A stretch of DNA of 64,000 nt, taken from contig NZ_CP027669.1 of the NCBI RefSeq assembly GCF_003008595.1, positions 1,488,001 through 1,552,000 on the forward strand, given 5' to 3'. Below the pieces are notes generated by a model, which saw nothing but the letters and a program-made list of their open reading frames with translations, ran no database searches and was not told the origin of the DNA. Shown here in pieces: positions 43,858 to 61,999 of the stretch (positions are counted from its first letter, which is position 1; each line of letters opens with the position of its first letter). The DNA is from Simplicispira suum. GTDB taxonomy: Bacteria; Pseudomonadota; Gammaproteobacteria; Burkholderiales; Burkholderiaceae_C. The translations under genes and the position numbers were made by a program.

Positions 43858-44769
43858 ATGGACCTTCTGCGCCTGAGCCTGCGCCAGCTGCAAATCTTTG
43901 TCGCCGTCGCCCAAAGCGGCAGCACCAGCGCCGCCAGCGACGCCATCGCGCTCTCGCAATCTGCCATCAGTGCAGCGGTGAACGAGCTCGAACGTATGCT
44001 CTCGCTGCAGCTCTTCGACCGCGCCGGCCGGCGCCTGCTGCTCAACGACAACGGCCGCGCCCTGCTGCCGCGCGCGCTGCGCATGCTTGAAGACGCGTCC
44101 GACATCGAGCGCATGGCGCGCGATGCCGACCAGCAGCTCCAGTCGCTGCGCATTGGCGCCAGCACCACCCTGGGCAACCATGTGCTACCTGCCCTGCTGG
44201 CCCGGTTCTTTGGCAGCAGCCCGGCCACCGCACCGCACTGGCAGTCCAGCGTGGCCATTGGCAACACCGAAGACATCTGCGCGCAGGTGGCCGACTTTGC
44301 ACTCGACATCGGCCTGGTCGAAGGCCACTGCCACCACCCGCAACTGCTGACACGCCCCTGGCTGCACGACGAACTGGTGCTGGTCGCGGCGCCCGGCGGC
44401 GCGCAAGGGCTGGACCCGCGCGAACCCACCAGCCTGGAGCAGCTGCAGAACGCCGTCTGGCTGCTGCGCGAGGCCGGATCAGGCACGCGAGAAACCGGCG
44501 ACGCCGCCATCCTGCCCCAACTGCACAGCTACCGCCGCGTGATCGAACTGGGCAGCTCGGAAGCCATCCAGCGGGCCGCCACTGCCGGCCTGGGCATTGC
44601 CTGCCTGTCGCGCTGGGTGGTGCAGGACTTTCTGCGCGAGGGGCGGCTGGTGGAGTTAATCACCCCGCTGCCGGCCATTCAACGCCAGTGCTTTTGTGTG
44701 CTGCGGCGGGGGAAGCAAAGGACGGCGGCGCTGGAGCGGTTGCTGGGGCAGCTTGGGTTGGAGGGGTGA
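43858..44769 (+). CDS. LysR-family regulator (YeiE-like)
   Basis: A 303-residue LysR protein. Winged helix at 4-65 (LSLRQLQIFVAVAQSGSTSAASDAIALSQSAISAAVNEL in pieces), then a substrate-binding domain (about 92-295) with the LRIGASTTLGNHVLP opening. It is divergent from the YeiH-type exporter, the same arrangement as yeiE/yeiH in E. coli, so it probably controls that exporter. Confidence 0.88.
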   Translation: MDLLRLSLRQLQIFVAVAQSGSTSAASDAIALSQSAISAAVNELERMLSLQLFDRAGRRLLLNDNGRALLPRALRMLEDASDIERMARDADQQLQSLRIGASTTLGNHVLPALLARFFGSSPATAPHWQSSVAIGNTEDICAQVADFALDIGLVEGHCHHPQLLTRPWLHDELVLVAAPGGAQGLDPREPTSLEQLQNAVWLLREAGSGTRETGDAAILPQLHSYRRVIELGSSEAIQRAATAGLGIACLSRWVVQDFLREGRLVELITPLPAIQRQCFCVLRRGKQRTAALERLLGQLGLEG

Positions 44770-45070: not shown

Positions 45071-48000
45071 CTAGCGTAATCTCTGGTTGATTCTCGCTTC
45101 AGTATCCTCCCGAGCAGCTTCCCGCTCGTAGGTATCTGTCAGCTTCATAAGCAGTTCGGAAGCCACGTACGGCGATGACATCCGGAGCTGCTGGGCCCAC
45201 TTTCTGTATTTCTCGGCCAGTTGGCGTTCCTGATCCCCGCCGGGACCTCGAGTATGAACCCCTCGTGAGTTGTACACGCCAGTATGCGCTCCGCGCATCA
45301 TATCCTCGGACTGGAGATCTTCCATCACGGTTCTCACCGCCTCACAAGGCCAGGCGCCGTCCTTGCCGATCTGCGCCGAGGCAAGCAGTTCTCCAATTAC
45401 GACATCAGCGATTCCGATGCGCGACAGCTCCGCGCAGGACTTGCGCACGGTTTCGGTCCACTTTGCCAGGCGCTCAGCATCAATGCTCCCTTGTTCGTCG
45501 CTTCCAGGGATTCTTTTCATTGCTTGTATGAGCTTGTATCCCCGTTCAGCCATTGGTCTGGCTTTTTCTGCTTCAACTCTGAATTCAGGAGGGTCCTCCG
45601 CTCGGTCACTGCGTTTGTACGTCCATACGATGGCTTGGACCAGTACTTCAGGGTGATCCTCGATGTAGCGCTCGAGGTTCGGAATTGCGGACTTGGCACG
45701 CCGGTCCCATCCGCGGTCAAGCACTTCTAGATACGCGAATTCAAGGCCGGCCTTCTGTTCGAGTGACAGTTCGGAAGTCTTGTTGATGCATTCGAAGGCC
45801 CTTTCGACGTGGTAGTGCTCAAGCAGGTATTCGCCCGCCTTGTCGTCGCCGTCCTGTGCCATGACCGTGAGAAGTTGGAAGAGCGTGTGGACCGGCAGCT
45901 TTTCGGGGTGATACTTCGCGAGTGCAAACGCTGCGCGTGGTCGCCTGGCCTTCATGAGCATGTCGACCGCCTTGGCGATCTCCGCAGGGGAGTCCCGCAT
46001 CCAGCCGGGAACGACCTCCTTCCAGTACCGCGTTTCAACCTCCTCTCCATATGAGGAGACCAGCGACCAAGTGCCTTCGCCGAAGGGCGCGAGCGCCAGG
46101 AAGCGGGCCGCGTTGTCGGGACCCATCGCTGTAATGGCAGAGCTTAAGAATGCTTCGCGTTTTTTGTCGTTGGGCATCACGCCTAAAGCGCCTTGGATCA
46201 GCCATTCCGATGCTCGGGTCGCAGACTCACTCTCGCTCCTTTTCTGGAAGGCTTGGGTCACCAGGGCGAGCAGCTCTTCCTCGTCCAGCACTCGCTCGGC
46301 CACAAGGGCGCCGATGATTCCCGATGCTCCGCTACGGATTGCCGTATCGAGCAAGCCGGCGACGCCATACTGCCCGTGGATTTCTTTCAGCGCATCGGCC
46401 CGCTGCTTCCGGATCCGCGCCTCGCGCTCTTCATAGTCAATATTTTCTAGGTCTTCGAGCTCGCCGGCAGACTCTTCGATCCAAGTGCCCTTGAAAAGCC
46501 ACGCGTGCTTGTCGAGGAGATTGCTCGGTTCAAGCGCGGCATGGATGTGCTTTGCAGCAGCCGCTACACGGGATTGCTTGCTGCTTTTCCTCGCGCGCAG
46601 AGTTGCGCGACGGGACAACGTCGAGACTCGAATTTTTTCGCGCAACGCAATCTTGTCGCTGTCGCTTGCGGTCTTCGCCCATGCCTCGACCAGCGCCCAT
46701 GCGCGATCCTGATCAGCATCCGCCAGGTCGTGGAGGCGGTCGATTAGGTCGGACAGCATCGACACCGAGTAGCGTGGCTGCGATAAGGCTAGCTCTATCA
46801 TTTTGCCCGCGAACTCTAATATCGGCCCCCACGTCGGAAACGGCTCACCGTGGCCGTATCCGTCCGGGCGCCAAGTCGGCTTGTGGCTGTAGTCCCCGAC
46901 TTGGTGGTGGTTGCCGAATTGCGCGACGCAAAGCGTCCAGGCGACATCCGGGAACCTGTTGAACAGGACTTTTACCAGCGCCAAGCGCTCGTCATTATTG
47001 GCTGCAGTCTGGGGCATCCATGATCGGAATATCGCTGCCAGCGAATGCGCCGGTTTGTTGACCCAGTTGTCGTTGATCTCTATCTGCGCGAGACGTGCGA
47101 GAATCATCACCGTACGAGGAAGCGTCTCCGGATTCCATGCGAGCCCTTCCAACGCCCAGAGCAGTCCAGTGCGGCTGGGACTGCCGAATATGCCGGACCC
47201 AGCGGGACGAAGGAGGCCGAAAACTGCGGGACTGCTCGTTTTCAGGTCGCGCTCGATGATCGAGAGAAATTCGGTCGGCGCTGCTTCAGCGTAGAGGGGC
47301 AGGTCGCGGTCGTTGGCTTCGAGGGTGCGCGTGGTGAGGGGATCGCTAAGTAGGTCGCGCACTACCAGGGCGGCCTCGACCTCCGTATCTATCCCCAAGC
47401 GTGCCTTGAAAAGGCCCACCCCGTGAACGGCTAGGAGTACGAGCGTTTCCGAAATGCCCTGACGGAACGCTGGAGAAAATTCCCGAGTCTTGCCGTGAAT
47501 GGACGCGGCCCATCGCTGGTCTTCGGCGAGATCAAGAGAGGGATCATCCTCGCCCAGCACCATCCGAGCGACGTCGAAATACCGCTTCAGGTCATCGCGG
47601 GTCACGTAGCGAGCAATGGCGTAGAGTAGGTCGATCTTCGAGACGACCCCGCGATATGTCCCGATGGACCAAAGCGGTGAGTCGTTCAGTTGGATCAGGC
47701 GTTGGAAGTCCTTTTCCAGTGCTTCGTACGCGCGGTCGCCTGCCAGCAGGGACAGTCCTGCCATGTCGGTTTCGTTGAGCGCGTGCCACGCGCCTACCAG
47801 CATGAAGGCGATTAGGTTCTCCGGGGCCTGTTGCTGTGTCGCCCAAAGTGGCATTCGTACGGCCTCGACGGTCGCGAGCCGGCGGCGCAGGACGGTAAGT
47901 GAGCGTCCCGACTCGTTTGCTAGGCTCTTGATCTCATCCCGGTTCTTGCCAATGCCTTTAAGCGCGGAATCGAATGTTTCGAAACTGACGGGTTCGAGAA

Positions 48001-49189
48001 CGATATCCGGCTCTGCGTTGACGGAGTTCCTTGGATACACCACGATGGAGTGCAATTGTTCAGCGTACGGCGCGAGTTCAAGTTCGACTTCGCGCGAGTG
48101 CACTACTGGAATGAACGGCCTCGTTCCGCCTGCAAGTTTCGGTAGGACACCAGCTTTATCGAAAACCAGGATCTGGTACCGATAAGGTTCCAGTTCGGCA
48201 CTTCCTTCGGGGCCAAAGCACTGGGCAACAAAGGCCAGCGCTTCGTTGGTGGAGTCCGCTGCGACCACGATTGGACCTTTGGGCCCCTTCGCGAGGCGGG
48301 AAGCGAGCTTGCGCTTCGCGTCCTCGATGGCCGAACTGAACAGCGAGCCGGGCAGCGGTGGAGTTGCCACGTTCGCCCAGTCTGTCCAGCACTTGTCGAG
48401 CGAGCGGACGCTCTGCGTCGGGGATCCTGTCTCGTTGGCAAACCATACTTGGCCGGGCAGAGATTGCTCCACCCACTGCTCAAGGTCGCTGGAGTCATAG
48501 GCCCGGACGTCTTTCCAGGAACCTTCTTTCTTCTTTTCAGTAACCCAAGCGTTTTTGCCAGCCCATCTGCGAGGAGTGACGAAAACGAATTCCATCGATG
48601 CCCTGTCATTTGCATCAGTTGCAGCTACGCTTTTCTTGTAATCTTTGTCCGCTTTCGTCTTAGGATCCTCGTTGGTGCCAAACTCCCAACCCGAGTGGCC
48701 AGCCGGCACCCAAGCAGTTCCCTCGTTCGCCACGATTCGACCGTCCCAGCCGGCACGCTGGGAGTCGTCGTTACCCGGGAAGTCGACTTCCGTGAGTCCG
48801 CTCCCTGTCGAATGGACCAAGGTCCTCAGGAATACCGCGAACCTGCTGCGAGCGACGATGTTGTGCGAAGCCCAACTCTCTATGTCGTTGGCTTTGATTG
48901 CCAGGAACGGGGGGACATACGCTTTCGCGTTCGTCGGGATACTCTTCTGTTTAGCCTTGAAGGCGTCGTACTGAGCCTGCATTTCGAGCAGATCTTTCCT
49001 GGGGAATCCGAATGCCTTCTCGATGCGAGTCGCCATATCTGCAGTGAGGGACGCTTTCCCGTTAAGCAGGTTGGAAAGTGCCGGACGTCCGACGCCAATA
49101 AGCTCGGCGGCTTTAGTCACGGACATATTCGCCGGGAAAACCTCTGCCTTGATGCGTTCGCCAGGATGACGGACTTCGCTGGTGTCCAT
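45071..49189 (-). CDS. Giant HigA-HTH fusion protein, candidate defence effector
   Basis: About 1,372 residues. Residues 8-75 (HPGERIKAEVF, VTKAAELIGVGRPALSNLLNGK) are a HigA-type XRE antitoxin domain. Residues 140-245 include GWDG (Asp 149), WEFG (Glu 169) and Lys 177/180, a spacing that could suit a PD-(D/E)xK nuclease, then FVFVTPRRWAGK. Residues 280-450 resemble a STAND-type NTPase region, but where a P-loop is expected the text is PIVVAADSTNEAL, without GKS/T. The remaining ~900 residues look helical and repeat-like. The ATG at 49189 is chosen because the HTH begins there; the frame continues to 49333 without coding character. No HigB-like toxin gene is adjacent. Base composition differs from its neighbours. 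Function unknown; defence is inference. Confidence 0.75.
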   Translation of the reverse strand: MDTSEVRHPGERIKAEVFPANMSVTKAAELIGVGRPALSNLLNGKASLTADMATRIEKAFGFPRKDLLEMQAQYDAFKAKQKSIPTNAKAYVPPFLAIKANDIESWASHNIVARSRFAVFLRTLVHSTGSGLTEVDFPGNDDSQRAGWDGRIVANEGTAWVPAGHSGWEFGTNEDPKTKADKDYKKSVAATDANDRASMEFVFVTPRRWAGKNAWVTEKKKEGSWKDVRAYDSSDLEQWVEQSLPGQVWFANETGSPTQSVRSLDKCWTDWANVATPPLPGSLFSSAIEDAKRKLASRLAKGPKGPIVVAADSTNEALAFVAQCFGPEGSAELEPYRYQILVFDKAGVLPKLAGGTRPFIPVVHSREVELELAPYAEQLHSIVVYPRNSVNAEPDIVLEPVSFETFDSALKGIGKNRDEIKSLANESGRSLTVLRRRLATVEAVRMPLWATQQQAPENLIAFMLVGAWHALNETDMAGLSLLAGDRAYEALEKDFQRLIQLNDSPLWSIGTYRGVVSKIDLLYAIARYVTRDDLKRYFDVARMVLGEDDPSLDLAEDQRWAASIHGKTREFSPAFRQGISETLVLLAVHGVGLFKARLGIDTEVEAALVVRDLLSDPLTTRTLEANDRDLPLYAEAAPTEFLSIIERDLKTSSPAVFGLLRPAGSGIFGSPSRTGLLWALEGLAWNPETLPRTVMILARLAQIEINDNWVNKPAHSLAAIFRSWMPQTAANNDERLALVKVLFNRFPDVAWTLCVAQFGNHHQVGDYSHKPTWRPDGYGHGEPFPTWGPILEFAGKMIELALSQPRYSVSMLSDLIDRLHDLADADQDRAWALVEAWAKTASDSDKIALREKIRVSTLSRRATLRARKSSKQSRVAAAAKHIHAALEPSNLLDKHAWLFKGTWIEESAGELEDLENIDYEEREARIRKQRADALKEIHGQYGVAGLLDTAIRSGASGIIGALVAERVLDEEELLALVTQAFQKRSESESATRASEWLIQGALGVMPNDKKREAFLSSAITAMGPDNAARFLALAPFGEGTWSLVSSYGEEVETRYWKEVVPGWMRDSPAEIAKAVDMLMKARRPRAAFALAKYHPEKLPVHTLFQLLTVMAQDGDDKAGEYLLEHYHVERAFECINKTSELSLEQKAGLEFAYLEVLDRGWDRRAKSAIPNLERYIEDHPEVLVQAIVWTYKRSDRAEDPPEFRVEAEKARPMAERGYKLIQAMKRIPGSDEQGSIDAERLAKWTETVRKSCAELSRIGIADVVIGELLASAQIGKDGAWPCEAVRTVMEDLQSEDMMRGAHTGVYNSRGVHTRGPGGDQERQLAEKYRKWAQQLRMSSPYVASELLMKLTDTYEREAAREDTEARINQRLR

Positions 49190-49235
49190 ATGCTTCCAAT
49201 CGCTAACTGTTGGCTGTGAATCGATGGCAGCGACC

Positions 49236-49269
49236 ATACTGCATGGTGTAGCGCGACACAATACAGTAT
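49236..49269 (-). promoter_or_regulatory. Dyad operator upstream of the HigA-fusion gene
   Basis: ATACTGCATGGTGT (49236-49249) and ACACAATACAGTAT (49256-49269) are inverted copies matching at 12 of 14 positions with a 6-base spacer. The dyad centres about 63 bp before the start codon. HigA antitoxins repress their own promoter through such dyads. Confidence 0.6.
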
Positions 49270-49587
49270 TCATCGAATTTGGCGTTGGTCGACCAGCGTC
49301 GGGCGAACAACTTGGCTGAATAGTCAGTCGCAAGCAGGAACCATCGGTGGTTGCGCTAATCGGCAGGCGGCCGGGCCTGCCGCCGGAGCTTGTGAGTGTC
49401 CGCTTAGGCCGCGAGGACTCGTAGCCCGTGCGGCAGGTTTCGCGGTGGACCGGTCTTCTGGGTGTCTGCTCAAGCGGGAAACCGAGCGTCGGCAGTTGGC
49501 CGACAACAGCCGTTCATCTTCTCGGATTTGAATGCGCTGCCTCAGATAGGAAAGGCCACGAACCCGCGCTGCGCCCACCGTTCCGGG
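49270..49587. other. Non-coding stretch before the IS array
   Basis: No gene supported. In particular no RelE/HigB-like small frame was found upstream of the HigA fusion. The sequence GGGATTAATGG marks the left limit of the array. Confidence 0.4.
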
Positions 49588-49679
49588 ATTAATGGAATGG
49601 ACGCCCCCACCTGATCGGCCTTGAAGTGCCAAAGTGGAGGCTCGATCAACCACTTGTTCAACAGACAGGAGCGTCCACC

Positions 49680-50723
49680 ATGCAAGTTACCACCGTTGGC
49701 ATCGATCTGGCCAAGAACATCTTTCACGTGCACGGTGTCGATCACACCGGTCGGATCGTCTTCAGCAAGCCCCTGCGCCGCGCGCAGATGGCCGAGTTTT
49801 TTGTCGGTTTGCCGCCGTGCCTGATTGGCATGGAGGCCTGCTCAGGCGCGCATTTCTGGGCGCGCAAGCTGCAAAGCCAGGGGCACGATGTGCGCCTGAT
49901 GTCACCGCAGTTCGTCAAGCCCTACGTCAAATCCAACAAGAACGACCGCGCAGACGCGCAAGCCATCTGCGAAGCTGTCAGCCGCCCCAGCATGCGCTTT
50001 GTGGCTGTCAAGAGCTGCGAACAGCAAGCGGTGCTGGCCGTGCACCGCGCACGCCAGGGCTTTGTGAAGATGCGCACGGCGCTGGCCAACCAGATTCGCG
50101 GCTTGCTCAGTGAGTTCGGCATCGTGATGGCCCAGGGCCTGCGCGTGGTGCTCGTCCAAGCTGGCGCCGTTGCCGCTGATGAGCGCATGGCGCTGCCTTC
50201 GCCCATGCGCACCCTGATCGGACATCTGCACCAGCAGCTCAAGCAGCTCGATGCGCAGGTCGCTCAACTGGAGCAGCTCATCGCCTCATCGGTGCAGGCA
50301 GACAGCGCCGAGCGACGGCTGCAGCAAGTGCCGGGCATCGGCCCCATCACCAGCAGCGCCATCGTGGCCACCGTGGGCGATGCCACGCTGTTTGCCAATG
50401 GCAAGCAACTGGCCGCCTGGCTGGGGTTGGTGCCGCGCCAGCACTCCAGTGGGGGCAAGGACAAACTGCTGGGCATCAGCAAACGCGGCGATGGTTATGT
50501 GCGCACCTTGCTCATCCATGGAGCGCGCTCGCTGATTCAGGCCAATGAGCGGCGGCGCGCCGCAGGCAAAAGCACCGATGCGTGGCTCGATCGGCTGCTG
50601 AGCCGGCGCAACGCCAATGTGGCTGCAGTTGCACTGGCCAATCGCAATGCACGCATCCTTTGGGCCATGCTGGTCAAAGCCAGCGAATACCGGCCCGAGG
50701 CCAGAATGTTGGCCGCAGTATGA
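49680..50723 (+). CDS. IS110/IS1111 transposase, copy 1
   Basis: A 347-residue DEDD transposase. Asp in VGIDLAKNIFH (about 8), Glu in IGMEACSGAH (about 48) and Asp residues in KSNKNDRADAQA (about 90-95) form the RuvC-like site. A coiled-coil (LHQQLKQLDAQVAQLEQL) leads to the C-terminal domain with VPGIGPITSSAI and the proposed nucleophilic Ser in RQHSSGGKDK. AGGAG lies 9 bp before the ATG. The family moves through circular intermediates and is guided by a small non-coding RNA in the element. The frame is intact. Confidence 0.95.
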   Translation: MQVTTVGIDLAKNIFHVHGVDHTGRIVFSKPLRRAQMAEFFVGLPPCLIGMEACSGAHFWARKLQSQGHDVRLMSPQFVKPYVKSNKNDRADAQAICEAVSRPSMRFVAVKSCEQQAVLAVHRARQGFVKMRTALANQIRGLLSEFGIVMAQGLRVVLVQAGAVAADERMALPSPMRTLIGHLHQQLKQLDAQVAQLEQLIASSVQADSAERRLQQVPGIGPITSSAIVATVGDATLFANGKQLAAWLGLVPRQHSSGGKDKLLGISKRGDGYVRTLLIHGARSLIQANERRRAAGKSTDAWLDRLLSRRNANVAAVALANRNARILWAMLVKASEYRPEARMLAAV

Positions 50724-50999
50724 AAGCGAACGAGGACAAACACGATTGAAACGGGCAGCGCACCCATTGATTGCACAGGCAACGCTCAAGGCGAGATGAT
50801 GGCAAGCACAGGTTGGACCGGCATCAGCAAAACCCGATGACCCCGACGTGCCGGCAACGAGCACGCGAAATTGATAGGGAGCTGGTGAGCGAATTCCATC
50901 AGGGACAGGGTTGAAAGTGACCCAACAAAGTCCGGATGTATGGCAGCAGTCCTGATACCTTTGAAAACAACATCATGCTCAGGCGCGGCTTGGCAAACC
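50724..50999 (+). ncRNA. Candidate bridge/seekRNA region, copy 1
   Basis: The 3' non-coding part of the element (about 276 bp before the right inverted repeat) is long and conserved in all copies. In IS1111-group elements the guide RNA is encoded downstream of the transposase. ATGTATGG at 50936-50943 is repeated at the element's right end (51010-51017), and GACCCC at 50839-50844 is the reverse complement of the GGGGTC at the right junction; both are as expected for guide segments but short. Exact ends cannot be set. Equivalent regions occur in copies 2-7 at +1,663 bp steps. Confidence 0.45.
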
Positions 51000-51021
51000 G
51001 GGGGCGTCCATGTATGGGGTC

Positions 51022-51250
51022 TGAGCACGAGTTTCGCTGCGCGAAATCGTGATCCGACCCCAATACCTGCGCCGCGCTCGTGCAGGTTGCCGGGGCCGAG
51101 CGCAGCGATGGCCCGAAAGGATGTTGGCCCCCAACTCCCCTCTGGCCGTGCCGAGGAGCACAGGCGCAAAGCGGATCAGGGCCGCGCGCTGTTTGAGCGA
51201 AGCGAGTTTGCGCGGACCCCGCTTTGCGCCGCGCACCGCAGGTTGCGGTT
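51022..51250. repeat. 229-bp spacer between IS copies (6 identical copies)
   Basis: Same sequence at 51022, 52685, 54348, 56011, 57674 and 59337. With the six preceding bases it opens with a palindrome: GGGGTC (51016-51021) to GACCCC (51056-51061) around GCACGAGTTTCGC/GCGAAATCGTG. The rest is GC-rich with no gene. It is absent beyond the array on either side. Confidence 0.85.
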
Positions 51251-52684
51251 ATTAATGGAATGGACGCCCCCACCTGATCGGCCTTGAAGTGCCAAAGTGG
51301 AGGCTCGATCAACCACTTGTTCAACAGACAGGAGCGTCCACCATGCAAGTTACCACCGTTGGCATCGATCTGGCCAAGAACATCTTTCACGTGCACGGTG
51401 TCGATCACACCGGTCGGATCGTCTTCAGCAAGCCCCTGCGCCGCGCGCAGATGGCCGAGTTTTTTGTCGGTTTGCCGCCGTGCCTGATTGGCATGGAGGC
51501 CTGCTCAGGCGCGCATTTCTGGGCGCGCAAGCTGCAAAGCCAGGGGCACGATGTGCGCCTGATGTCACCGCAGTTCGTCAAGCCCTACGTCAAATCCAAC
51601 AAGAACGACCGCGCAGACGCGCAAGCCATCTGCGAAGCTGTCAGCCGCCCCAGCATGCGCTTTGTGGCTGTCAAGAGCTGCGAACAGCAAGCGGTGCTGG
51701 CCGTGCACCGCGCACGCCAGGGCTTTGTGAAGATGCGCACGGCGCTGGCCAACCAGATTCGCGGCTTGCTCAGTGAGTTCGGCATCGTGATGGCCCAGGG
51801 CCTGCGCGTGGTGCTCGTCCAAGCTGGCGCCGTTGCCGCTGATGAGCGCATGGCGCTGCCTTCGCCCATGCGCACCCTGATCGGACATCTGCACCAGCAG
51901 CTCAAGCAGCTCGATGCGCAGGTCGCTCAACTGGAGCAGCTCATCGCCTCATCGGTGCAGGCAGACAGCGCCGAGCGACGGCTGCAGCAAGTGCCGGGCA
52001 TCGGCCCCATCACCAGCAGCGCCATCGTGGCCACCGTGGGCGATGCCACGCTGTTTGCCAATGGCAAGCAACTGGCCGCCTGGCTGGGGTTGGTGCCGCG
52101 CCAGCACTCCAGTGGGGGCAAGGACAAACTGCTGGGCATCAGCAAACGCGGCGATGGTTATGTGCGCACCTTGCTCATCCATGGAGCGCGCTCGCTGATT
52201 CAGGCCAATGAGCGGCGGCGCGCCGCAGGCAAAAGCACCGATGCGTGGCTCGATCGGCTGCTGAGCCGGCGCAACGCCAATGTGGCTGCAGTTGCACTGG
52301 CCAATCGCAATGCACGCATCCTTTGGGCCATGCTGGTCAAAGCCAGCGAATACCGGCCCGAGGCCAGAATGTTGGCCGCAGTATGAAAGCGAACGAGGAC
52401 AAACACGATTGAAACGGGCAGCGCACCCATTGATTGCACAGGCAACGCTCAAGGCGAGATGATGGCAAGCACAGGTTGGACCGGCATCAGCAAAACCCGA
52501 TGACCCCGACGTGCCGGCAACGAGCACGCGAAATTGATAGGGAGCTGGTGAGCGAATTCCATCAGGGACAGGGTTGAAAGTGACCCAACAAAGTCCGGAT
52601 GTATGGCAGCAGTCCTGATACCTTTGAAAACAACATCATGCTCAGGCGCGGCTTGGCAAACCGGGGGCGTCCATGTATGGGGTC
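51251..52684 (+). mobile_element. IS1111-group element, array copy 2
   Basis: Same length and inverted repeats as copy 1, offset by 1,663 bp. Left flank is spacer (…TTGCGGTT). Confidence 0.85.
51343..52386 (+). CDS. IS110/IS1111 transposase, copy 2
   Basis: 347 residues, same protein as copy 1. Intact start, ribosome site and catalytic motifs. Confidence 0.95.
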   Translation: MQVTTVGIDLAKNIFHVHGVDHTGRIVFSKPLRRAQMAEFFVGLPPCLIGMEACSGAHFWARKLQSQGHDVRLMSPQFVKPYVKSNKNDRADAQAICEAVSRPSMRFVAVKSCEQQAVLAVHRARQGFVKMRTALANQIRGLLSEFGIVMAQGLRVVLVQAGAVAADERMALPSPMRTLIGHLHQQLKQLDAQVAQLEQLIASSVQADSAERRLQQVPGIGPITSSAIVATVGDATLFANGKQLAAWLGLVPRQHSSGGKDKLLGISKRGDGYVRTLLIHGARSLIQANERRRAAGKSTDAWLDRLLSRRNANVAAVALANRNARILWAMLVKASEYRPEARMLAAV

Positions 52685-52913
52685 TGAGCACGAGTTTCGC
52701 TGCGCGAAATCGTGATCCGACCCCAATACCTGCGCCGCGCTCGTGCAGGTTGCCGGGGCCGAGCGCAGCGATGGCCCGAAAGGATGTTGGCCCCCAACTC
52801 CCCTCTGGCCGTGCCGAGGAGCACAGGCGCAAAGCGGATCAGGGCCGCGCGCTGTTTGAGCGAAGCGAGTTTGCGCGGACCCCGCTTTGCGCCGCGCACC
52901 GCAGGTTGCGGTT

Positions 52914-54347
52914 ATTAATGGAATGGACGCCCCCACCTGATCGGCCTTGAAGTGCCAAAGTGGAGGCTCGATCAACCACTTGTTCAACAGACAGGAGCGT
53001 CCACCATGCAAGTTACCACCGTTGGCATCGATCTGGCCAAGAACATCTTTCACGTGCACGGTGTCGATCACACCGGTCGGATCGTCTTCAGCAAGCCCCT
53101 GCGCCGCGCGCAGATGGCCGAGTTTTTTGTCGGTTTGCCGCCGTGCCTGATTGGCATGGAGGCCTGCTCAGGCGCGCATTTCTGGGCGCGCAAGCTGCAA
53201 AGCCAGGGGCACGATGTGCGCCTGATGTCACCGCAGTTCGTCAAGCCCTACGTCAAATCCAACAAGAACGACCGCGCAGACGCGCAAGCCATCTGCGAAG
53301 CTGTCAGCCGCCCCAGCATGCGCTTTGTGGCTGTCAAGAGCTGCGAACAGCAAGCGGTGCTGGCCGTGCACCGCGCACGCCAGGGCTTTGTGAAGATGCG
53401 CACGGCGCTGGCCAACCAGATTCGCGGCTTGCTCAGTGAGTTCGGCATCGTGATGGCCCAGGGCCTGCGCGTGGTGCTCGTCCAAGCTGGCGCCGTTGCC
53501 GCTGATGAGCGCATGGCGCTGCCTTCGCCCATGCGCACCCTGATCGGACATCTGCACCAGCAGCTCAAGCAGCTCGATGCGCAGGTCGCTCAACTGGAGC
53601 AGCTCATCGCCTCATCGGTGCAGGCAGACAGCGCCGAGCGACGGCTGCAGCAAGTGCCGGGCATCGGCCCCATCACCAGCAGCGCCATCGTGGCCACCGT
53701 GGGCGATGCCACGCTGTTTGCCAATGGCAAGCAACTGGCCGCCTGGCTGGGGTTGGTGCCGCGCCAGCACTCCAGTGGGGGCAAGGACAAACTGCTGGGC
53801 ATCAGCAAACGCGGCGATGGTTATGTGCGCACCTTGCTCATCCATGGAGCGCGCTCGCTGATTCAGGCCAATGAGCGGCGGCGCGCCGCAGGCAAAAGCA
53901 CCGATGCGTGGCTCGATCGGCTGCTGAGCCGGCGCAACGCCAATGTGGCTGCAGTTGCACTGGCCAATCGCAATGCACGCATCCTTTGGGCCATGCTGGT
54001 CAAAGCCAGCGAATACCGGCCCGAGGCCAGAATGTTGGCCGCAGTATGAAAGCGAACGAGGACAAACACGATTGAAACGGGCAGCGCACCCATTGATTGC
54101 ACAGGCAACGCTCAAGGCGAGATGATGGCAAGCACAGGTTGGACCGGCATCAGCAAAACCCGATGACCCCGACGTGCCGGCAACGAGCACGCGAAATTGA
54201 TAGGGAGCTGGTGAGCGAATTCCATCAGGGACAGGGTTGAAAGTGACCCAACAAAGTCCGGATGTATGGCAGCAGTCCTGATACCTTTGAAAACAACATC
54301 ATGCTCAGGCGCGGCTTGGCAAACCGGGGGCGTCCATGTATGGGGTC
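52914..54347 (+). mobile_element. IS1111-group element, array copy 3
   Basis: Same as copy 1, offset by 2 x 1,663 bp. Confidence 0.85.
53006..54049 (+). CDS. IS110/IS1111 transposase, copy 3
   Basis: 347 residues, same protein as copy 1, intact. Confidence 0.95.
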   Translation: MQVTTVGIDLAKNIFHVHGVDHTGRIVFSKPLRRAQMAEFFVGLPPCLIGMEACSGAHFWARKLQSQGHDVRLMSPQFVKPYVKSNKNDRADAQAICEAVSRPSMRFVAVKSCEQQAVLAVHRARQGFVKMRTALANQIRGLLSEFGIVMAQGLRVVLVQAGAVAADERMALPSPMRTLIGHLHQQLKQLDAQVAQLEQLIASSVQADSAERRLQQVPGIGPITSSAIVATVGDATLFANGKQLAAWLGLVPRQHSSGGKDKLLGISKRGDGYVRTLLIHGARSLIQANERRRAAGKSTDAWLDRLLSRRNANVAAVALANRNARILWAMLVKASEYRPEARMLAAV

Positions 54348-54576
54348 TGAGCACGAGTTTCGCTGCGCGAAATCGTGATCCGACCCCAATACCTGCGCCG
54401 CGCTCGTGCAGGTTGCCGGGGCCGAGCGCAGCGATGGCCCGAAAGGATGTTGGCCCCCAACTCCCCTCTGGCCGTGCCGAGGAGCACAGGCGCAAAGCGG
54501 ATCAGGGCCGCGCGCTGTTTGAGCGAAGCGAGTTTGCGCGGACCCCGCTTTGCGCCGCGCACCGCAGGTTGCGGTT

Positions 54577-56010
54577 ATTAATGGAATGGACGCCCCCACC
54601 TGATCGGCCTTGAAGTGCCAAAGTGGAGGCTCGATCAACCACTTGTTCAACAGACAGGAGCGTCCACCATGCAAGTTACCACCGTTGGCATCGATCTGGC
54701 CAAGAACATCTTTCACGTGCACGGTGTCGATCACACCGGTCGGATCGTCTTCAGCAAGCCCCTGCGCCGCGCGCAGATGGCCGAGTTTTTTGTCGGTTTG
54801 CCGCCGTGCCTGATTGGCATGGAGGCCTGCTCAGGCGCGCATTTCTGGGCGCGCAAGCTGCAAAGCCAGGGGCACGATGTGCGCCTGATGTCACCGCAGT
54901 TCGTCAAGCCCTACGTCAAATCCAACAAGAACGACCGCGCAGACGCGCAAGCCATCTGCGAAGCTGTCAGCCGCCCCAGCATGCGCTTTGTGGCTGTCAA
55001 GAGCTGCGAACAGCAAGCGGTGCTGGCCGTGCACCGCGCACGCCAGGGCTTTGTGAAGATGCGCACGGCGCTGGCCAACCAGATTCGCGGCTTGCTCAGT
55101 GAGTTCGGCATCGTGATGGCCCAGGGCCTGCGCGTGGTGCTCGTCCAAGCTGGCGCCGTTGCCGCTGATGAGCGCATGGCGCTGCCTTCGCCCATGCGCA
55201 CCCTGATCGGACATCTGCACCAGCAGCTCAAGCAGCTCGATGCGCAGGTCGCTCAACTGGAGCAGCTCATCGCCTCATCGGTGCAGGCAGACAGCGCCGA
55301 GCGACGGCTGCAGCAAGTGCCGGGCATCGGCCCCATCACCAGCAGCGCCATCGTGGCCACCGTGGGCGATGCCACGCTGTTTGCCAATGGCAAGCAACTG
55401 GCCGCCTGGCTGGGGTTGGTGCCGCGCCAGCACTCCAGTGGGGGCAAGGACAAACTGCTGGGCATCAGCAAACGCGGCGATGGTTATGTGCGCACCTTGC
55501 TCATCCATGGAGCGCGCTCGCTGATTCAGGCCAATGAGCGGCGGCGCGCCGCAGGCAAAAGCACCGATGCGTGGCTCGATCGGCTGCTGAGCCGGCGCAA
55601 CGCCAATGTGGCTGCAGTTGCACTGGCCAATCGCAATGCACGCATCCTTTGGGCCATGCTGGTCAAAGCCAGCGAATACCGGCCCGAGGCCAGAATGTTG
55701 GCCGCAGTATGAAAGCGAACGAGGACAAACACGATTGAAACGGGCAGCGCACCCATTGATTGCACAGGCAACGCTCAAGGCGAGATGATGGCAAGCACAG
55801 GTTGGACCGGCATCAGCAAAACCCGATGACCCCGACGTGCCGGCAACGAGCACGCGAAATTGATAGGGAGCTGGTGAGCGAATTCCATCAGGGACAGGGT
55901 TGAAAGTGACCCAACAAAGTCCGGATGTATGGCAGCAGTCCTGATACCTTTGAAAACAACATCATGCTCAGGCGCGGCTTGGCAAACCGGGGGCGTCCAT
56001 GTATGGGGTC
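54577..56010 (+). mobile_element. IS1111-group element, array copy 4
   Basis: Same as copy 1, offset by 3 x 1,663 bp. Confidence 0.85.
54669..55712 (+). CDS. IS110/IS1111 transposase, copy 4
   Basis: 347 residues, same protein as copy 1, intact. Confidence 0.95.
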   Translation: MQVTTVGIDLAKNIFHVHGVDHTGRIVFSKPLRRAQMAEFFVGLPPCLIGMEACSGAHFWARKLQSQGHDVRLMSPQFVKPYVKSNKNDRADAQAICEAVSRPSMRFVAVKSCEQQAVLAVHRARQGFVKMRTALANQIRGLLSEFGIVMAQGLRVVLVQAGAVAADERMALPSPMRTLIGHLHQQLKQLDAQVAQLEQLIASSVQADSAERRLQQVPGIGPITSSAIVATVGDATLFANGKQLAAWLGLVPRQHSSGGKDKLLGISKRGDGYVRTLLIHGARSLIQANERRRAAGKSTDAWLDRLLSRRNANVAAVALANRNARILWAMLVKASEYRPEARMLAAV

Positions 56011-56239
56011 TGAGCACGAGTTTCGCTGCGCGAAATCGTGATCCGACCCCAATACCTGCGCCGCGCTCGTGCAGGTTGCCGGGGCCGAGCGCAGCGATGG
56101 CCCGAAAGGATGTTGGCCCCCAACTCCCCTCTGGCCGTGCCGAGGAGCACAGGCGCAAAGCGGATCAGGGCCGCGCGCTGTTTGAGCGAAGCGAGTTTGC
56201 GCGGACCCCGCTTTGCGCCGCGCACCGCAGGTTGCGGTT

Positions 56240-57673
56240 ATTAATGGAATGGACGCCCCCACCTGATCGGCCTTGAAGTGCCAAAGTGGAGGCTCGATCA
56301 ACCACTTGTTCAACAGACAGGAGCGTCCACCATGCAAGTTACCACCGTTGGCATCGATCTGGCCAAGAACATCTTTCACGTGCACGGTGTCGATCACACC
56401 GGTCGGATCGTCTTCAGCAAGCCCCTGCGCCGCGCGCAGATGGCCGAGTTTTTTGTCGGTTTGCCGCCGTGCCTGATTGGCATGGAGGCCTGCTCAGGCG
56501 CGCATTTCTGGGCGCGCAAGCTGCAAAGCCAGGGGCACGATGTGCGCCTGATGTCACCGCAGTTCGTCAAGCCCTACGTCAAATCCAACAAGAACGACCG
56601 CGCAGACGCGCAAGCCATCTGCGAAGCTGTCAGCCGCCCCAGCATGCGCTTTGTGGCTGTCAAGAGCTGCGAACAGCAAGCGGTGCTGGCCGTGCACCGC
56701 GCACGCCAGGGCTTTGTGAAGATGCGCACGGCGCTGGCCAACCAGATTCGCGGCTTGCTCAGTGAGTTCGGCATCGTGATGGCCCAGGGCCTGCGCGTGG
56801 TGCTCGTCCAAGCTGGCGCCGTTGCCGCTGATGAGCGCATGGCGCTGCCTTCGCCCATGCGCACCCTGATCGGACATCTGCACCAGCAGCTCAAGCAGCT
56901 CGATGCGCAGGTCGCTCAACTGGAGCAGCTCATCGCCTCATCGGTGCAGGCAGACAGCGCCGAGCGACGGCTGCAGCAAGTGCCGGGCATCGGCCCCATC
57001 ACCAGCAGCGCCATCGTGGCCACCGTGGGCGATGCCACGCTGTTTGCCAATGGCAAGCAACTGGCCGCCTGGCTGGGGTTGGTGCCGCGCCAGCACTCCA
57101 GTGGGGGCAAGGACAAACTGCTGGGCATCAGCAAACGCGGCGATGGTTATGTGCGCACCTTGCTCATCCATGGAGCGCGCTCGCTGATTCAGGCCAATGA
57201 GCGGCGGCGCGCCGCAGGCAAAAGCACCGATGCGTGGCTCGATCGGCTGCTGAGCCGGCGCAACGCCAATGTGGCTGCAGTTGCACTGGCCAATCGCAAT
57301 GCACGCATCCTTTGGGCCATGCTGGTCAAAGCCAGCGAATACCGGCCCGAGGCCAGAATGTTGGCCGCAGTATGAAAGCGAACGAGGACAAACACGATTG
57401 AAACGGGCAGCGCACCCATTGATTGCACAGGCAACGCTCAAGGCGAGATGATGGCAAGCACAGGTTGGACCGGCATCAGCAAAACCCGATGACCCCGACG
57501 TGCCGGCAACGAGCACGCGAAATTGATAGGGAGCTGGTGAGCGAATTCCATCAGGGACAGGGTTGAAAGTGACCCAACAAAGTCCGGATGTATGGCAGCA
57601 GTCCTGATACCTTTGAAAACAACATCATGCTCAGGCGCGGCTTGGCAAACCGGGGGCGTCCATGTATGGGGTC
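56240..57673 (+). mobile_element. IS1111-group element, array copy 5
   Basis: Same as copy 1, offset by 4 x 1,663 bp. Confidence 0.85.
56332..57375 (+). CDS. IS110/IS1111 transposase, copy 5
   Basis: 347 residues, same protein as copy 1, intact. Confidence 0.95.
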   Translation: MQVTTVGIDLAKNIFHVHGVDHTGRIVFSKPLRRAQMAEFFVGLPPCLIGMEACSGAHFWARKLQSQGHDVRLMSPQFVKPYVKSNKNDRADAQAICEAVSRPSMRFVAVKSCEQQAVLAVHRARQGFVKMRTALANQIRGLLSEFGIVMAQGLRVVLVQAGAVAADERMALPSPMRTLIGHLHQQLKQLDAQVAQLEQLIASSVQADSAERRLQQVPGIGPITSSAIVATVGDATLFANGKQLAAWLGLVPRQHSSGGKDKLLGISKRGDGYVRTLLIHGARSLIQANERRRAAGKSTDAWLDRLLSRRNANVAAVALANRNARILWAMLVKASEYRPEARMLAAV

Positions 57674-57902
57674 TGAGCACGAGTTTCGCTGCGCGAAATC
57701 GTGATCCGACCCCAATACCTGCGCCGCGCTCGTGCAGGTTGCCGGGGCCGAGCGCAGCGATGGCCCGAAAGGATGTTGGCCCCCAACTCCCCTCTGGCCG
57801 TGCCGAGGAGCACAGGCGCAAAGCGGATCAGGGCCGCGCGCTGTTTGAGCGAAGCGAGTTTGCGCGGACCCCGCTTTGCGCCGCGCACCGCAGGTTGCGG
57901 TT

Positions 57903-59336
57903 ATTAATGGAATGGACGCCCCCACCTGATCGGCCTTGAAGTGCCAAAGTGGAGGCTCGATCAACCACTTGTTCAACAGACAGGAGCGTCCACCATGCAA
58001 GTTACCACCGTTGGCATCGATCTGGCCAAGAACATCTTTCACGTGCACGGTGTCGATCACACCGGTCGGATCGTCTTCAGCAAGCCCCTGCGCCGCGCGC
58101 AGATGGCCGAGTTTTTTGTCGGTTTGCCGCCGTGCCTGATTGGCATGGAGGCCTGCTCAGGCGCGCATTTCTGGGCGCGCAAGCTGCAAAGCCAGGGGCA
58201 CGATGTGCGCCTGATGTCACCGCAGTTCGTCAAGCCCTACGTCAAATCCAACAAGAACGACCGCGCAGACGCGCAAGCCATCTGCGAAGCTGTCAGCCGC
58301 CCCAGCATGCGCTTTGTGGCTGTCAAGAGCTGCGAACAGCAAGCGGTGCTGGCCGTGCACCGCGCACGCCAGGGCTTTGTGAAGATGCGCACGGCGCTGG
58401 CCAACCAGATTCGCGGCTTGCTCAGTGAGTTCGGCATCGTGATGGCCCAGGGCCTGCGCGTGGTGCTCGTCCAAGCTGGCGCCGTTGCCGCTGATGAGCG
58501 CATGGCGCTGCCTTCGCCCATGCGCACCCTGATCGGACATCTGCACCAGCAGCTCAAGCAGCTCGATGCGCAGGTCGCTCAACTGGAGCAGCTCATCGCC
58601 TCATCGGTGCAGGCAGACAGCGCCGAGCGACGGCTGCAGCAAGTGCCGGGCATCGGCCCCATCACCAGCAGCGCCATCGTGGCCACCGTGGGCGATGCCA
58701 CGCTGTTTGCCAATGGCAAGCAACTGGCCGCCTGGCTGGGGTTGGTGCCGCGCCAGCACTCCAGTGGGGGCAAGGACAAACTGCTGGGCATCAGCAAACG
58801 CGGCGATGGTTATGTGCGCACCTTGCTCATCCATGGAGCGCGCTCGCTGATTCAGGCCAATGAGCGGCGGCGCGCCGCAGGCAAAAGCACCGATGCGTGG
58901 CTCGATCGGCTGCTGAGCCGGCGCAACGCCAATGTGGCTGCAGTTGCACTGGCCAATCGCAATGCACGCATCCTTTGGGCCATGCTGGTCAAAGCCAGCG
59001 AATACCGGCCCGAGGCCAGAATGTTGGCCGCAGTATGAAAGCGAACGAGGACAAACACGATTGAAACGGGCAGCGCACCCATTGATTGCACAGGCAACGC
59101 TCAAGGCGAGATGATGGCAAGCACAGGTTGGACCGGCATCAGCAAAACCCGATGACCCCGACGTGCCGGCAACGAGCACGCGAAATTGATAGGGAGCTGG
59201 TGAGCGAATTCCATCAGGGACAGGGTTGAAAGTGACCCAACAAAGTCCGGATGTATGGCAGCAGTCCTGATACCTTTGAAAACAACATCATGCTCAGGCG
59301 CGGCTTGGCAAACCGGGGGCGTCCATGTATGGGGTC
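57903..59336 (+). mobile_element. IS1111-group element, array copy 6
   Basis: Same as copy 1, offset by 5 x 1,663 bp. Confidence 0.85.
57995..59038 (+). CDS. IS110/IS1111 transposase, copy 6
   Basis: 347 residues, same protein as copy 1, intact. Confidence 0.95.
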   Translation: MQVTTVGIDLAKNIFHVHGVDHTGRIVFSKPLRRAQMAEFFVGLPPCLIGMEACSGAHFWARKLQSQGHDVRLMSPQFVKPYVKSNKNDRADAQAICEAVSRPSMRFVAVKSCEQQAVLAVHRARQGFVKMRTALANQIRGLLSEFGIVMAQGLRVVLVQAGAVAADERMALPSPMRTLIGHLHQQLKQLDAQVAQLEQLIASSVQADSAERRLQQVPGIGPITSSAIVATVGDATLFANGKQLAAWLGLVPRQHSSGGKDKLLGISKRGDGYVRTLLIHGARSLIQANERRRAAGKSTDAWLDRLLSRRNANVAAVALANRNARILWAMLVKASEYRPEARMLAAV

Positions 59337-59565
59337 TGAGCACGAGTTTCGCTGCGCGAAATCGTGATCCGACCCCAATACCTGCGCCGCGCTCGTGCAG
59401 GTTGCCGGGGCCGAGCGCAGCGATGGCCCGAAAGGATGTTGGCCCCCAACTCCCCTCTGGCCGTGCCGAGGAGCACAGGCGCAAAGCGGATCAGGGCCGC
59501 GCGCTGTTTGAGCGAAGCGAGTTTGCGCGGACCCCGCTTTGCGCCGCGCACCGCAGGTTGCGGTT

Positions 59566-60999
59566 ATTAATGGAATGGACGCCCCCACCTGATCGGCCTT
59601 GAAGTGCCAAAGTGGAGGCTCGATCAACCACTTGTTCAACAGACAGGAGCGTCCACCATGCAAGTTACCACCGTTGGCATCGATCTGGCCAAGAACATCT
59701 TTCACGTGCACGGTGTCGATCACACCGGTCGGATCGTCTTCAGCAAGCCCCTGCGCCGCGCGCAGATGGCCGAGTTTTTTGTCGGTTTGCCGCCGTGCCT
59801 GATTGGCATGGAGGCCTGCTCAGGCGCGCATTTCTGGGCGCGCAAGCTGCAAAGCCAGGGGCACGATGTGCGCCTGATGTCACCGCAGTTCGTCAAGCCC
59901 TACGTCAAATCCAACAAGAACGACCGCGCAGACGCGCAAGCCATCTGCGAAGCTGTCAGCCGCCCCAGCATGCGCTTTGTGGCTGTCAAGAGCTGCGAAC
60001 AGCAAGCGGTGCTGGCCGTGCACCGCGCACGCCAGGGCTTTGTGAAGATGCGCACGGCGCTGGCCAACCAGATTCGCGGCTTGCTCAGTGAGTTCGGCAT
60101 CGTGATGGCCCAGGGCCTGCGCGTGGTGCTCGTCCAAGCTGGCGCCGTTGCCGCTGATGAGCGCATGGCGCTGCCTTCGCCCATGCGCACCCTGATCGGA
60201 CATCTGCACCAGCAGCTCAAGCAGCTCGATGCGCAGGTCGCTCAACTGGAGCAGCTCATCGCCTCATCGGTGCAGGCAGACAGCGCCGAGCGACGGCTGC
60301 AGCAAGTGCCGGGCATCGGCCCCATCACCAGCAGCGCCATCGTGGCCACCGTGGGCGATGCCACGCTGTTTGCCAATGGCAAGCAACTGGCCGCCTGGCT
60401 GGGGTTGGTGCCGCGCCAGCACTCCAGTGGGGGCAAGGACAAACTGCTGGGCATCAGCAAACGCGGCGATGGTTATGTGCGCACCTTGCTCATCCATGGA
60501 GCGCGCTCGCTGATTCAGGCCAATGAGCGGCGGCGCGCCGCAGGCAAAAGCACCGATGCGTGGCTCGATCGGCTGCTGAGCCGGCGCAACGCCAATGTGG
60601 CTGCAGTTGCACTGGCCAATCGCAATGCACGCATCCTTTGGGCCATGCTGGTCAAAGCCAGCGAATACCGGCCGGAGGCCAGAATGTTGGCCGCAGTATG
60701 AAAGCGAACGAGGACAAACACGATTGAAACGGGCAGCGCACCCATTGATTGCACAGGCAACGCTCAAGGCGAGATGATGGCAAGCACAGGTTGGACCGGC
60801 ATCAGCAAAACCCGATGACCCCGACGTGCCGGCAACGAGCACGCGAAATTGATAGGGAGCTGGTGAGCGAATTCCATCAGGGACAGGGTTGAAAGTGACC
60901 CAACAAAGTCCGGATGTATGGCAGCAGTCCTGATACCTTTGAAAACAACATCATGCTCAGGCGCGGCTTGGCAAACCGGGGGCGTCCATGTATGGGGTC
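59566..60999 (+). mobile_element. IS1111-group element, array copy 7 (last)
   Basis: Matches the other copies up to TATGGGGTC at 60999, then leaves the spacer sequence. It carries the one base difference noticed in the array (60674). Confidence 0.85.
59658..60701 (+). CDS. IS110/IS1111 transposase, copy 7
   Basis: 347 residues with the same amino acid sequence as copies 1-6; the single base change is a synonymous Pro codon (CCC to CCG). Confidence 0.95.
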   Translation: MQVTTVGIDLAKNIFHVHGVDHTGRIVFSKPLRRAQMAEFFVGLPPCLIGMEACSGAHFWARKLQSQGHDVRLMSPQFVKPYVKSNKNDRADAQAICEAVSRPSMRFVAVKSCEQQAVLAVHRARQGFVKMRTALANQIRGLLSEFGIVMAQGLRVVLVQAGAVAADERMALPSPMRTLIGHLHQQLKQLDAQVAQLEQLIASSVQADSAERRLQQVPGIGPITSSAIVATVGDATLFANGKQLAAWLGLVPRQHSSGGKDKLLGISKRGDGYVRTLLIHGARSLIQANERRRAAGKSTDAWLDRLLSRRNANVAAVALANRNARILWAMLVKASEYRPEARMLAAV

Positions 61000-61078
61000 A
61001 GACGCCCATTTCACGGCGGTGCGCAGCACCGCCCCCTTCGGGCGAGCCGTAGGCTCGGTGAATTGGGACTCTGACCCC
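60994..61078. repeat. Imperfect palindrome at the right end of the array
   Basis: GGGGTCAGA (60994-61002) and TCTGACCCC (61070-61078) with partly matching inner arms (CGCCCATTTCAC / GTGAATTGGG). Like the spacer palindrome, it begins with the GGGGTC at the right edge of the IS. Confidence 0.65.
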
Positions 61079-61210
61079 AAAAACCGACACGGACAGCGGG
61101 GTCGCCCTTTCTTTGGTGACTTTCTTTCGGCGACGCGAAAGAAAGTTACTGCGCCGCCGGGCGCACATCCCGGCACCCGCCCTTGGCAGAGGCATACCGT
61201 CATTCCAGCG
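61049..61210 (+). repeat. Dispersed repeat (family B), copy 2
   Basis: Inverted relative to 13669-13846 and matching it over most of its length (GGCTCGGTGAATTGGG, GACAGCGGGGTCGCC, GCGCCGCCGGGCGCACATCC, CCCGCCCTTGGCA, GTCATTCCAG). It shows no coding function. The remaining stretch to 61390 holds no gene. Confidence 0.75.
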
Positions 61211-61390: not shown

Positions 61391-61999
61391 ATGAAGCTTT
61401 ACTACTCCCCCGGTGCCTGCTCGATGTCGCCCCATATCGTGCTGCACGAGGCCGGCCTGGCGCACGAGGCCATTGCCGCGCCCACCAAGACGCACAAGCT
61501 GGCCGACGGCACCGACTACTACACCATCAACCCACTCGGCTACGTGCCCTTTCTGGTGCTGGACGATGGCCGCACCCTGCGCGAAGGCCCGGCCATCGTG
61601 CAGTACCTGGCCGACCAGGCACCCGACAAAAAGCTGGCGCCCCCCGCCGGCGGCTTTGAGCGCTACCAACTGCAGGAATGGCTGACCTTCATCGGCACCG
61701 AGCTGCACAAAAGCTTTGGCCCCTTCTTCGGCGGGCCCGCGAACGACGAATACAAGGCGTCCGTCAAAGAGCGTTTGATGTCGCGCCTGGCTTTCGTCGA
61801 CCAGCAGCTCGCCGGCAAGGACTACTTGATGGGCGCGCAGTTCACCGTGGCCGACGCCTACCTGTTCACCGTGAGCGGCTGGGCCAAGCCGGTCGGGTTC
61901 GATCTGTCGCACCTGAAGAACCTGATGGCCTACCGCGACCGCGTGGGCGCGCGGCCCGCCGTAATCGCCACGATGAAGGCCGAAGGTCTGATCAAGTAA
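61391..61999 (+). CDS. Glutathione S-transferase (beta-class, GstA-like)
   Basis: A 202-residue GST. The N-terminal thioredoxin fold starts MKLYYSPGACSMSPHI, with Cys 10 in the position typical of bacterial beta-class enzymes, and has the EGPAIVQYLAD motif (about 65). The C-terminal helical domain has FTVADAYLF. It conjugates glutathione to electrophiles or repairs oxidative damage. The frame is open upstream into repeats, but the ATG at 61391 matches family starts. Confidence 0.92.
   Translation: MKLYYSPGACSMSPHIVLHEAGLAHEAIAAPTKTHKLADGTDYYTINPLGYVPFLVLDDGRTLREGPAIVQYLADQAPDKKLAPPAGGFERYQLQEWLTFIGTELHKSFGPFFGGPANDEYKASVKERLMSRLAFVDQQLAGKDYLMGAQFTVADAYLFTVSGWAKPVGFDLSHLKNLMAYRDRVGARPAVIATMKAEGLIK

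Follow-up and report, generated by a model that had tools for sequence, protein, structure and literature searches.

The subject of this report is a tandem array in the genome of Simplicispira suum (G000; 4.15 Mb, 3 contigs, estimated completeness 100%). In the window, i.e. the whole 64,000-bp stretch of DNA that was analysed (C1:1488001-1552000), seven copies of an insertion sequence (IS), assigned by its sequence to the IS1111 group of the IS110 family, stand head-to-tail upstream of a likely glutathione transferase (GST) gene and are separated by six identical spacers. We consider it probable that two same-orientation, RNA-guided insertions into one repeat were followed by homologous recombination to the present layout, IS-(spacer-IS)6. 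The features of the array and its flanks are, in window positions:

49588..60999, + strand, whole periodic region, period 1,663 bp, IS-(spacer-IS)6, from self-comparison and genome search
49590..51014, + strand, IS copy 1, 1,425 bp, with left subterminal inverted repeat (sTIR) ATGGACGCCCCC at 49597-49608 and right sTIR GGGGGCGTCCAT at 51000-51011
49680..50723, + strand, transposase gene of copy 1, 347 amino acids (aa), DEDD_Tnp_IS110 and Transposase_20 domains; recurs in each unit
50815..50905, + strand, core of the candidate guide (seek/bridge) RNA of copy 1, in the 3´ non-coding region; recurs in each unit
51015..51252, + strand, spacer 1 of 6, all identical: dispersed-repeat segment TGGGGTC...GCAGGTTGC followed by GGTTAT (51247-51252, start of the hairpin)
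51253..52677, + strand, IS copy 2
52916..54340, + strand, IS copy 3
54579..56003, + strand, IS copy 4
56242..57666, + strand, IS copy 5
57905..59329, + strand, IS copy 6
59568..60992, + strand, IS copy 7, bearing the sole difference (G at 60674), which it has in common with the single copy L077
49498..49589, + strand, left flank: head of the dispersed repeat ending CCGGGAT, the left half of target site 1 (flank extent estimated by eye from other copies)
60993..61085, + strand, right flank: remainder of the 99-bp hairpin (TGGGGTCAGA...TCTGACCCCAAAAACC) supplying target site 2; absent at the locus of the congener G012
61086..61208, + strand, tail of the dispersed repeat (GACACGGACAGCGGGGTCGCC...), after which, as in G012, the GST gene follows (extent estimated by eye)

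Geometry of the array

Comparison of the window with itself at a lag of 1,663 bp gave identity from 49588 to the pair 59336/60999, with one internal mismatch (C at 59011, G at 60674). The periodic region measures 11,412 bp (6 x 1,663 + 1,434), and a genome search for the unit, in which the best 40 of 132 first-look candidates were scored, returned six full 1,663-bp units in series followed by a seventh IS without a spacer. The seven head-to-tail copies, the period and the single base difference of the original prediction are thus reproduced. A repeat of such length and exactness cannot have originated by chance, and the array is confirmed as real in this assembly. Tandem Repeats Finder did not detect it, because the longest period of that program is 500.

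The outer edges of identity contain target-derived bases, two at the left (AT) and seven at the right (TGGGGTC). The ends were therefore drawn by the IS1111 convention, 7 bp beyond the left sTIR and 3 bp beyond the right one. The 3-bp rule is general for the right ends of IS1111 elements. The 7-bp rule for the left ends is described in PMC11187229. Drawn in this way, the element measures 1,425 bp, with a spacer of 238 bp, and these values replace the 1,434 and 229 bp first proposed. The sTIRs are a perfect pair of 12 bp, and the ends are consistent at six distinct sites.

The 347-aa product has a DEDD, RuvC-like domain at its N-terminus (PF01548, 64.6 bits) and a Transposase_20 domain at its C-terminus (PF02371, 93.8 bits), and matches NF033542, the NCBI model for IS110 RNA-guided transposases, at 367.5 bits against a cut-off of 140. 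The earlier assignment to the IS1111 group agrees with these matches. The transposase frame is open in all seven array copies, which had been described as active-looking; the 59011/60674 difference affects the third position of a proline codon and is silent. At least 11 near-identical copies are present in the genome, seven in the array and four single ones (L074-L077), and all are 1,425 bp long except L077, which is short by 24 bp.

Near-identity of the units would also follow from an assembly artefact, in which fewer true copies (perhaps IS-spacer-IS) were multiplied by the assembler. The units are identical apart from one base, the copy number of seven is that of one assembly, and the tandem-repeat genotype differed between two long-read assemblies of one strain (PMC9176272). 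An artefact is nevertheless unlikely: the variant base is confined to the last copy, and a genome in 3 contigs with complete estimated content was likely assembled from long reads. Assemblers also collapse such repeats more often than they expand them.

Target sites and the origin of the spacer

All 11 near-identical copies have AT before and TGGGGTC after them, apart from L075, which is followed by GGGGTC, one base fewer. They occupy five places and six distinct sites, both array ends included, and no target bases are duplicated at any of the six. Once the IS is removed, the locus can be aligned with that of G012 without a break. Insertion is site- and orientation-specific and occurs without target duplication (11 of 11 copies at AT^(T)GGGGTC).

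The spacer, which the original prediction left unexplained, matches a dispersed intergenic repeat in all but its last bases, with 70-87% identity over most of its length at several places in the genome. At least 41 matches were found. Only the six array spacers are exact, and there is therefore no sign of the spacer moving in a mobile unit; the idea that it is part of a larger mobile element was rejected on the same ground and because related forms stand without an IS. Such IS-free versions, e.g. at genome positions 2054451, 1354363, 3777716, 734340 and 3760607 (the last with TGGAGTC), consist of a head ending CCGGGAT or similar, the segment TGGGGTC...GCAGGTTGC, and a tail with GGACACGGACAGCGGGGTCGCC or a close variant of it. 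At the array, the left flank is the repeat head and the DNA past copy 7 resumes the repeat tail. On this sequence evidence the spacer is native dispersed intergenic repeat DNA.

Between GCAGGTTGC and the tail sits a 99-bp hairpin, GGTTATTGGGGTCAGA...TCTGACCCCAAAAACC, divided by the array into 51247-51252 and 60993-61085. Its ends, GGTTATTGGGGTCAGA and TCTGACCCCAAAAACC, form a near-perfect 16-bp inverted repeat, and it folds at -67.5 kcal/mol for 110 bases. The hairpin brings a second AT^TGGGGTC site, 238 bp from the first and in the same orientation. The length of the spacer is thus the distance between two target sites of one repeat, since the spacer is native repeat DNA whose second site is carried by the hairpin. 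Elsewhere in the genome only 45 bases of the hairpin flank match (window about 13799-13843). The hairpin itself is possibly a small palindromic mobile element.

The stretches around the GST gene of five congeners (G012, G003, G019, G007 and G009) were compared. G012 has the repeat once at the orthologous place upstream of the same GST gene, with neither IS nor hairpin. A second head module lies a few hundred bases past three other repeats of the host genome (near 734074, 3777443 and 375100), and neighbouring target sites are therefore not unique to the array locus. Runs of a short tandem motif similar to CAATGCCTGCGCCGCGCC lie beside the dispersed repeat at two places (L079, C1:3777000-3778400, and L080, C1:733700-735000, both of G000) and are possibly a variable-number repeat.

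It had been argued that identical spacers exclude random repeated insertion. Random insertion is indeed ruled out by them. The argument overlooks site specificity, which makes the filling of an already existing tandem array a possibility to consider: if the 238-bp spacer had already been repeated, each repeat would begin with a usable site, and seven independent insertions would leave identical spacers. The second head modules show that target sites do occur as neighbours. Against this stand the single repeat in G012 and seven other repeats of the host genome, none of which forms a head-to-tail array of the 238-bp unit. Complete filling of such an array would also be odd. The sequence ATTGGGGTCNGANC has 22 matches in the genome, six of them opposite arms within the six spacers; the 16 outside the array are uninterrupted, some being opposite palindrome arms beside single IS copies, and compare with only four single IS copies elsewhere. 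We regard filling of a pre-existing array as very improbable.

The candidate guide RNA

The 3´ non-coding region of the element is 291 bp long. A guide-RNA candidate had been proposed for each unit, and a covarying fold was found there. The region was aligned with those of 27 of 80 relatives (L084-L110), giving a fold alignment of 93 columns and 28 sequences, with pairs counted on the 27 distinct rows. The structure has an outer helix, a CCC/GGG step and an apical stem; 94.1% of its cells are paired, the scored structure being derived from folds of the same sequences. Shuffling of partners gave a mean of 86.9%, and none of 500 shuffles reached the observed value; slid versions were paired at 30-42%. 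Both-sided changes occur in 11 of 14 pairs, one weak pair in the CCC/GGG step being unpaired in 11 sequences, and RNAalifold alone yields nearly the same fold. Both strands of the internal loop vary between sequences. Rfam gave no meaningful match on 49200-51400 (three matches, best E-value 2.3, all far under the gathering scores).

Pairing of the loop strands with the flanks was scored in 25 of the 27 relatives; L086 and L089, whose right ends are unrecognisable, were left out, and L093 was retained, with a score of 0, although its right flank starts with N. The array element was excluded from the shuffles and scored apart. The register was first spotted by eye, and six offsets were then scored. 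In one register, 160 of 225 right-flank positions agree with the reverse complement of the 5´ loop (shuffle mean 95.6, maximum 121 in 5,000), and the five left-flank bases next to the element agree with the 3´ loop at 122 of 125 (shuffle mean 58.0, maximum 85). Four of the five other offsets for each loop lie near the shuffles or much closer to them; weakly raised are offset 1 of the 5´ loop (80/225; 5 of 5,000 shuffles) and offset 0 of the 3´ loop (48/125; 1 of 5,000). These scores come from relatives that are not independent, because some are close kin or from one strain, and in relatives known from one place the five left bases could travel with the element. The order of the matches in the 25 relatives is that described for IS1111 seekRNAs, in which the top-strand match lies 5´ of the bottom-strand match (PMC11187229). 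The candidate guide RNA is thus supported by covariation and, in relatives, by guide-target matching.

The 80 related loci were drawn from a collection of genome contigs from which records of the host genome itself were possibly left out. Their transposases are 50-64% identical to that of the array (62% for the best-scoring one), and the best-scoring relatives are mostly from Burkholderiales. Among 26 genomes of the genus, the host included, the closest transposase from another genome is that of G008, at 62% identity, and the host genome has three divergent relatives at 43-52%. A search of solved structures gave two weak matches, to ISCro4 and IS621, the ISCro4 alignment being weak; in a plasmid search, one match among those listed (10 of 1,070 records with related DNA) covers 80% of the query at 66.8% identity.

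Members of the IS1111 group such as ISPa11, ISPpu9, ISKpn4 and ISEc11 are described as RNA-guided and site-specific (PMC11187229, PMC1525189, PMC8450116). The array element has in common with them the IS110-type domains, sTIRs with outer ends of 7 and 3 bp, a 3´ guide RNA (here a candidate), and insertion into repeated palindromic DNA without target duplication. It differs in its seven tandem, near-identical copies, in a transposase only 50-64% identical to its relatives, in its target, ATTGGGGTC, and in a left guide arm that matches its own sites poorly.

Proposed founding and amplification, and comparable arrangements

The array starts and stops with an IS and has n+1 direct IS copies around n identical units, between unique outer flanks. 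Its six inner junctions are all identical, and no junction is novel besides those of the founding insertions. Such an arrangement of seven IS copies, six spacers and unique flanks is the expected product of unequal homologous recombination between direct IS copies. The original prediction had named unequal recombination or rolling replication of an IS-spacer unit; recent amplification of such a unit is supported and the junctions fit the former mechanism, acting between direct IS repeats, while rolling replication has no specific evidence in its favour.

The founding events may be reconstructed as follows. Judging from the anatomy of the locus and the IS-free locus of G012, the dispersed intergenic repeat would at first have stood once upstream of the GST gene and begun with an AT^TGGGGTC site at its head; a small hairpin within it would have added the second site, 238 bp on and in the same orientation. 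An IS1111-group element, steered by its guide RNA, would then have entered both of the sites observed, in the same orientation, to give IS-spacer-IS. In the last step, the 1,425-bp direct repeats would have recombined homologously, probably through unequal exchange or fork repair that depends on RecA and involves sister chromosomes, so that spacer-IS was multiplied to six and the number of IS copies rose to seven. A precedent for the recombination step is seen in Burkholderia thailandensis, where a RecA-dependent duplication takes place via 1,336 bp common to IS2-like copies (PMC9946442); the direct homology available in the array is 1,425 bp. Given the near-total identity of the units, the amplification must be recent or the units continually homogenised. 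The copy number of seven, the recent origin and the RecA-dependence are what we infer from one assembly.

A trace of the founders may be preserved at element position 1107. Copy 7 and L077 have G there; copies 1-6 and L074-L076 have C. This pattern fits a right-hand founder that inserted separately from the left-hand one.

Growth of the array could alternatively have been driven by the transposase, through circles or composite excisions carrying IS and spacer that re-inserted repeatedly at one place. IS1111 elements do make circles and are site-specific (PMC11187229), and in relatives of ISPpu9 an RNA gene with end boxes occurs both as tandem copies and apart from its transposase gene (PMC8450116). 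In the IS1111 reaction as described, the two IS ends are joined in a circle that then inserts into the target (PMC11187229). With right end (RE) and left end (LE) abutted and the target uninterrupted, such insertions, repeated at the array, would leave RE-LE abutments or consume new targets. Neither is seen at the array junctions. The genome search also found no exact spacer outside the array. Transposase-driven growth is accordingly very improbable, and unequal exchange driven by the recombinase was likewise rejected, for want of RE-LE abutment.

Several observations weigh against two founding insertions followed by homologous recombination. The G common to copy 7 and L077 could be a recurrent mutation. 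No spacer match is present in the congener stretches around the GST gene of G003, G019, G007 and G009. The guide of the array element fits its own sites imperfectly: the right arm matches at 6-7 of 9 positions at five of the six sites, with L075 at 3 of 9. The left arm reaches no more than 2-3 of 5 at any of the six, compared with 122/125 in the 25 relatives. The guide thus accounts for GGGGTC and AT and leaves the outer left bases unexplained. Units are also lost when direct repeats recombine, and seven copies without known benefit therefore need drift, selection or a burst. One possibility is that the array is a standing, adjustable dosage of transposase and guide RNA, held by selection or by the element's own fitness, and no transient accident; guides aimed at repeats would plant same-orientation copies a few hundred bases apart, as recombination-ready cassettes. 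We find this proposal doubtful.

Founding by two insertions with later homologous recombination involves a known mechanism, which is the likely cause here, and the array is an unusually clear example of it. As in the IS2-like duplications of B. thailandensis (PMC9946442), direct IS copies bracket the unit, with n+1 copies around n units. The array is unlike these and unlike the IS-flanked tandem amplifications of IS26 (PMC9602291, PMC8822349) in its tiny unit of 1.66 kb, made up, besides the IS, of intergenic repeat DNA only and carrying no cargo gene.

A comparable pair is found in the congener G009, a single-contig genome, where a single 389-bp spacer is flanked by two identical, same-orientation stretches of 1,487 bp each (L200, 898-4260). 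They contain a different IS1111-type element, with a transposase 41% identical to that of the array, and, read by eye, the flanks and the ends of the spacer resemble attC sites of an integron cassette. Among the matches listed at E <= 1e-30 in the 26 genus genomes, this is the only other direct identical pair on one contig. As far as can be read from its sequence, the pair is the configuration that precedes amplification, independent of the array and itself unamplified, and a candidate for future amplification. ISKpn4 is described as an IS1111-type element that targets attC of integron cassettes (PMC11187229). As with such elements, repeated targets can set same-orientation copies close together, seemingly also in G009; unlike theirs, the target at the array is an intergenic palindromic repeat, and the pair was amplified.

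No homogeneous array was found at the 80 related loci from named genomes (flanks to 10 kb, many contigs short). Draft assemblies tend to collapse identical tandem copies, and for these reasons the count says little about rarity; nor can a DNA search for the family in 399 genomes show arrays, because two candidates were scored per genome. In the literature searched, which mostly excludes subscription journals, no title or abstract opening mentions tandem IS110/IS1111 arrays; we make no claim that they are unreported. At 13 of the 80 loci a further, divergent IS1111-type transposase match lies nearby, mostly head to tail and about 300-470 bp upstream:

L125, L129, L130, L133, L138, L139, L142
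L143, L145, L146, L148, L155, L159

Two genes flank the array. The one downstream is:

61391-61999, + strand, likely glutathione transferase GstA gene, likely start 61391

Its longest open reading frame (ORF), from 60914, begins inside IS copy 7. The array units read towards this gene, by which no effect is implied. On the other side, the ORF 45071-49333 (- strand, 1,420 aa) has an N-terminal HigA-like helix-turn-helix (TIGR02607, 59.2 bits; also PF01381). The remainder has no Pfam family match and a very weak PADLOC hint (PD-Lambda-4_A, E=0.003). Helix-turn-helix matches aside, a search of 30 genomes gave a single long relative, a distant one in G003 (27% identity over residues 143-1412). In G003, at about 5 kb upstream from the GST gene, there is also a stretch (L176) that is 82% identical to window 44575-44764 and has neither repeat nor IS. 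This hints that the region of the giant gene and the array differs between species at this place. The original prediction had pointed to the giant gene beside the array; no link between the two is demonstrated.

In conclusion, the interest of the array lies in the traceable way in which two site-specific insertions probably seeded it, the likely homologous amplification itself being ordinary. The target choice of an RNA-guided IS would set the geometry of later amplification, with a spacer as long as the distance between two guide targets. The guide-target register read from the 25 relatives also gives a straightforward means of reading the likely targets of IS1111 elements that are not yet characterised. 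For IS110/IS1111 elements generally, the prediction is that clustered targets will give rise to direct pairs of copies that are prone to amplify or delete.

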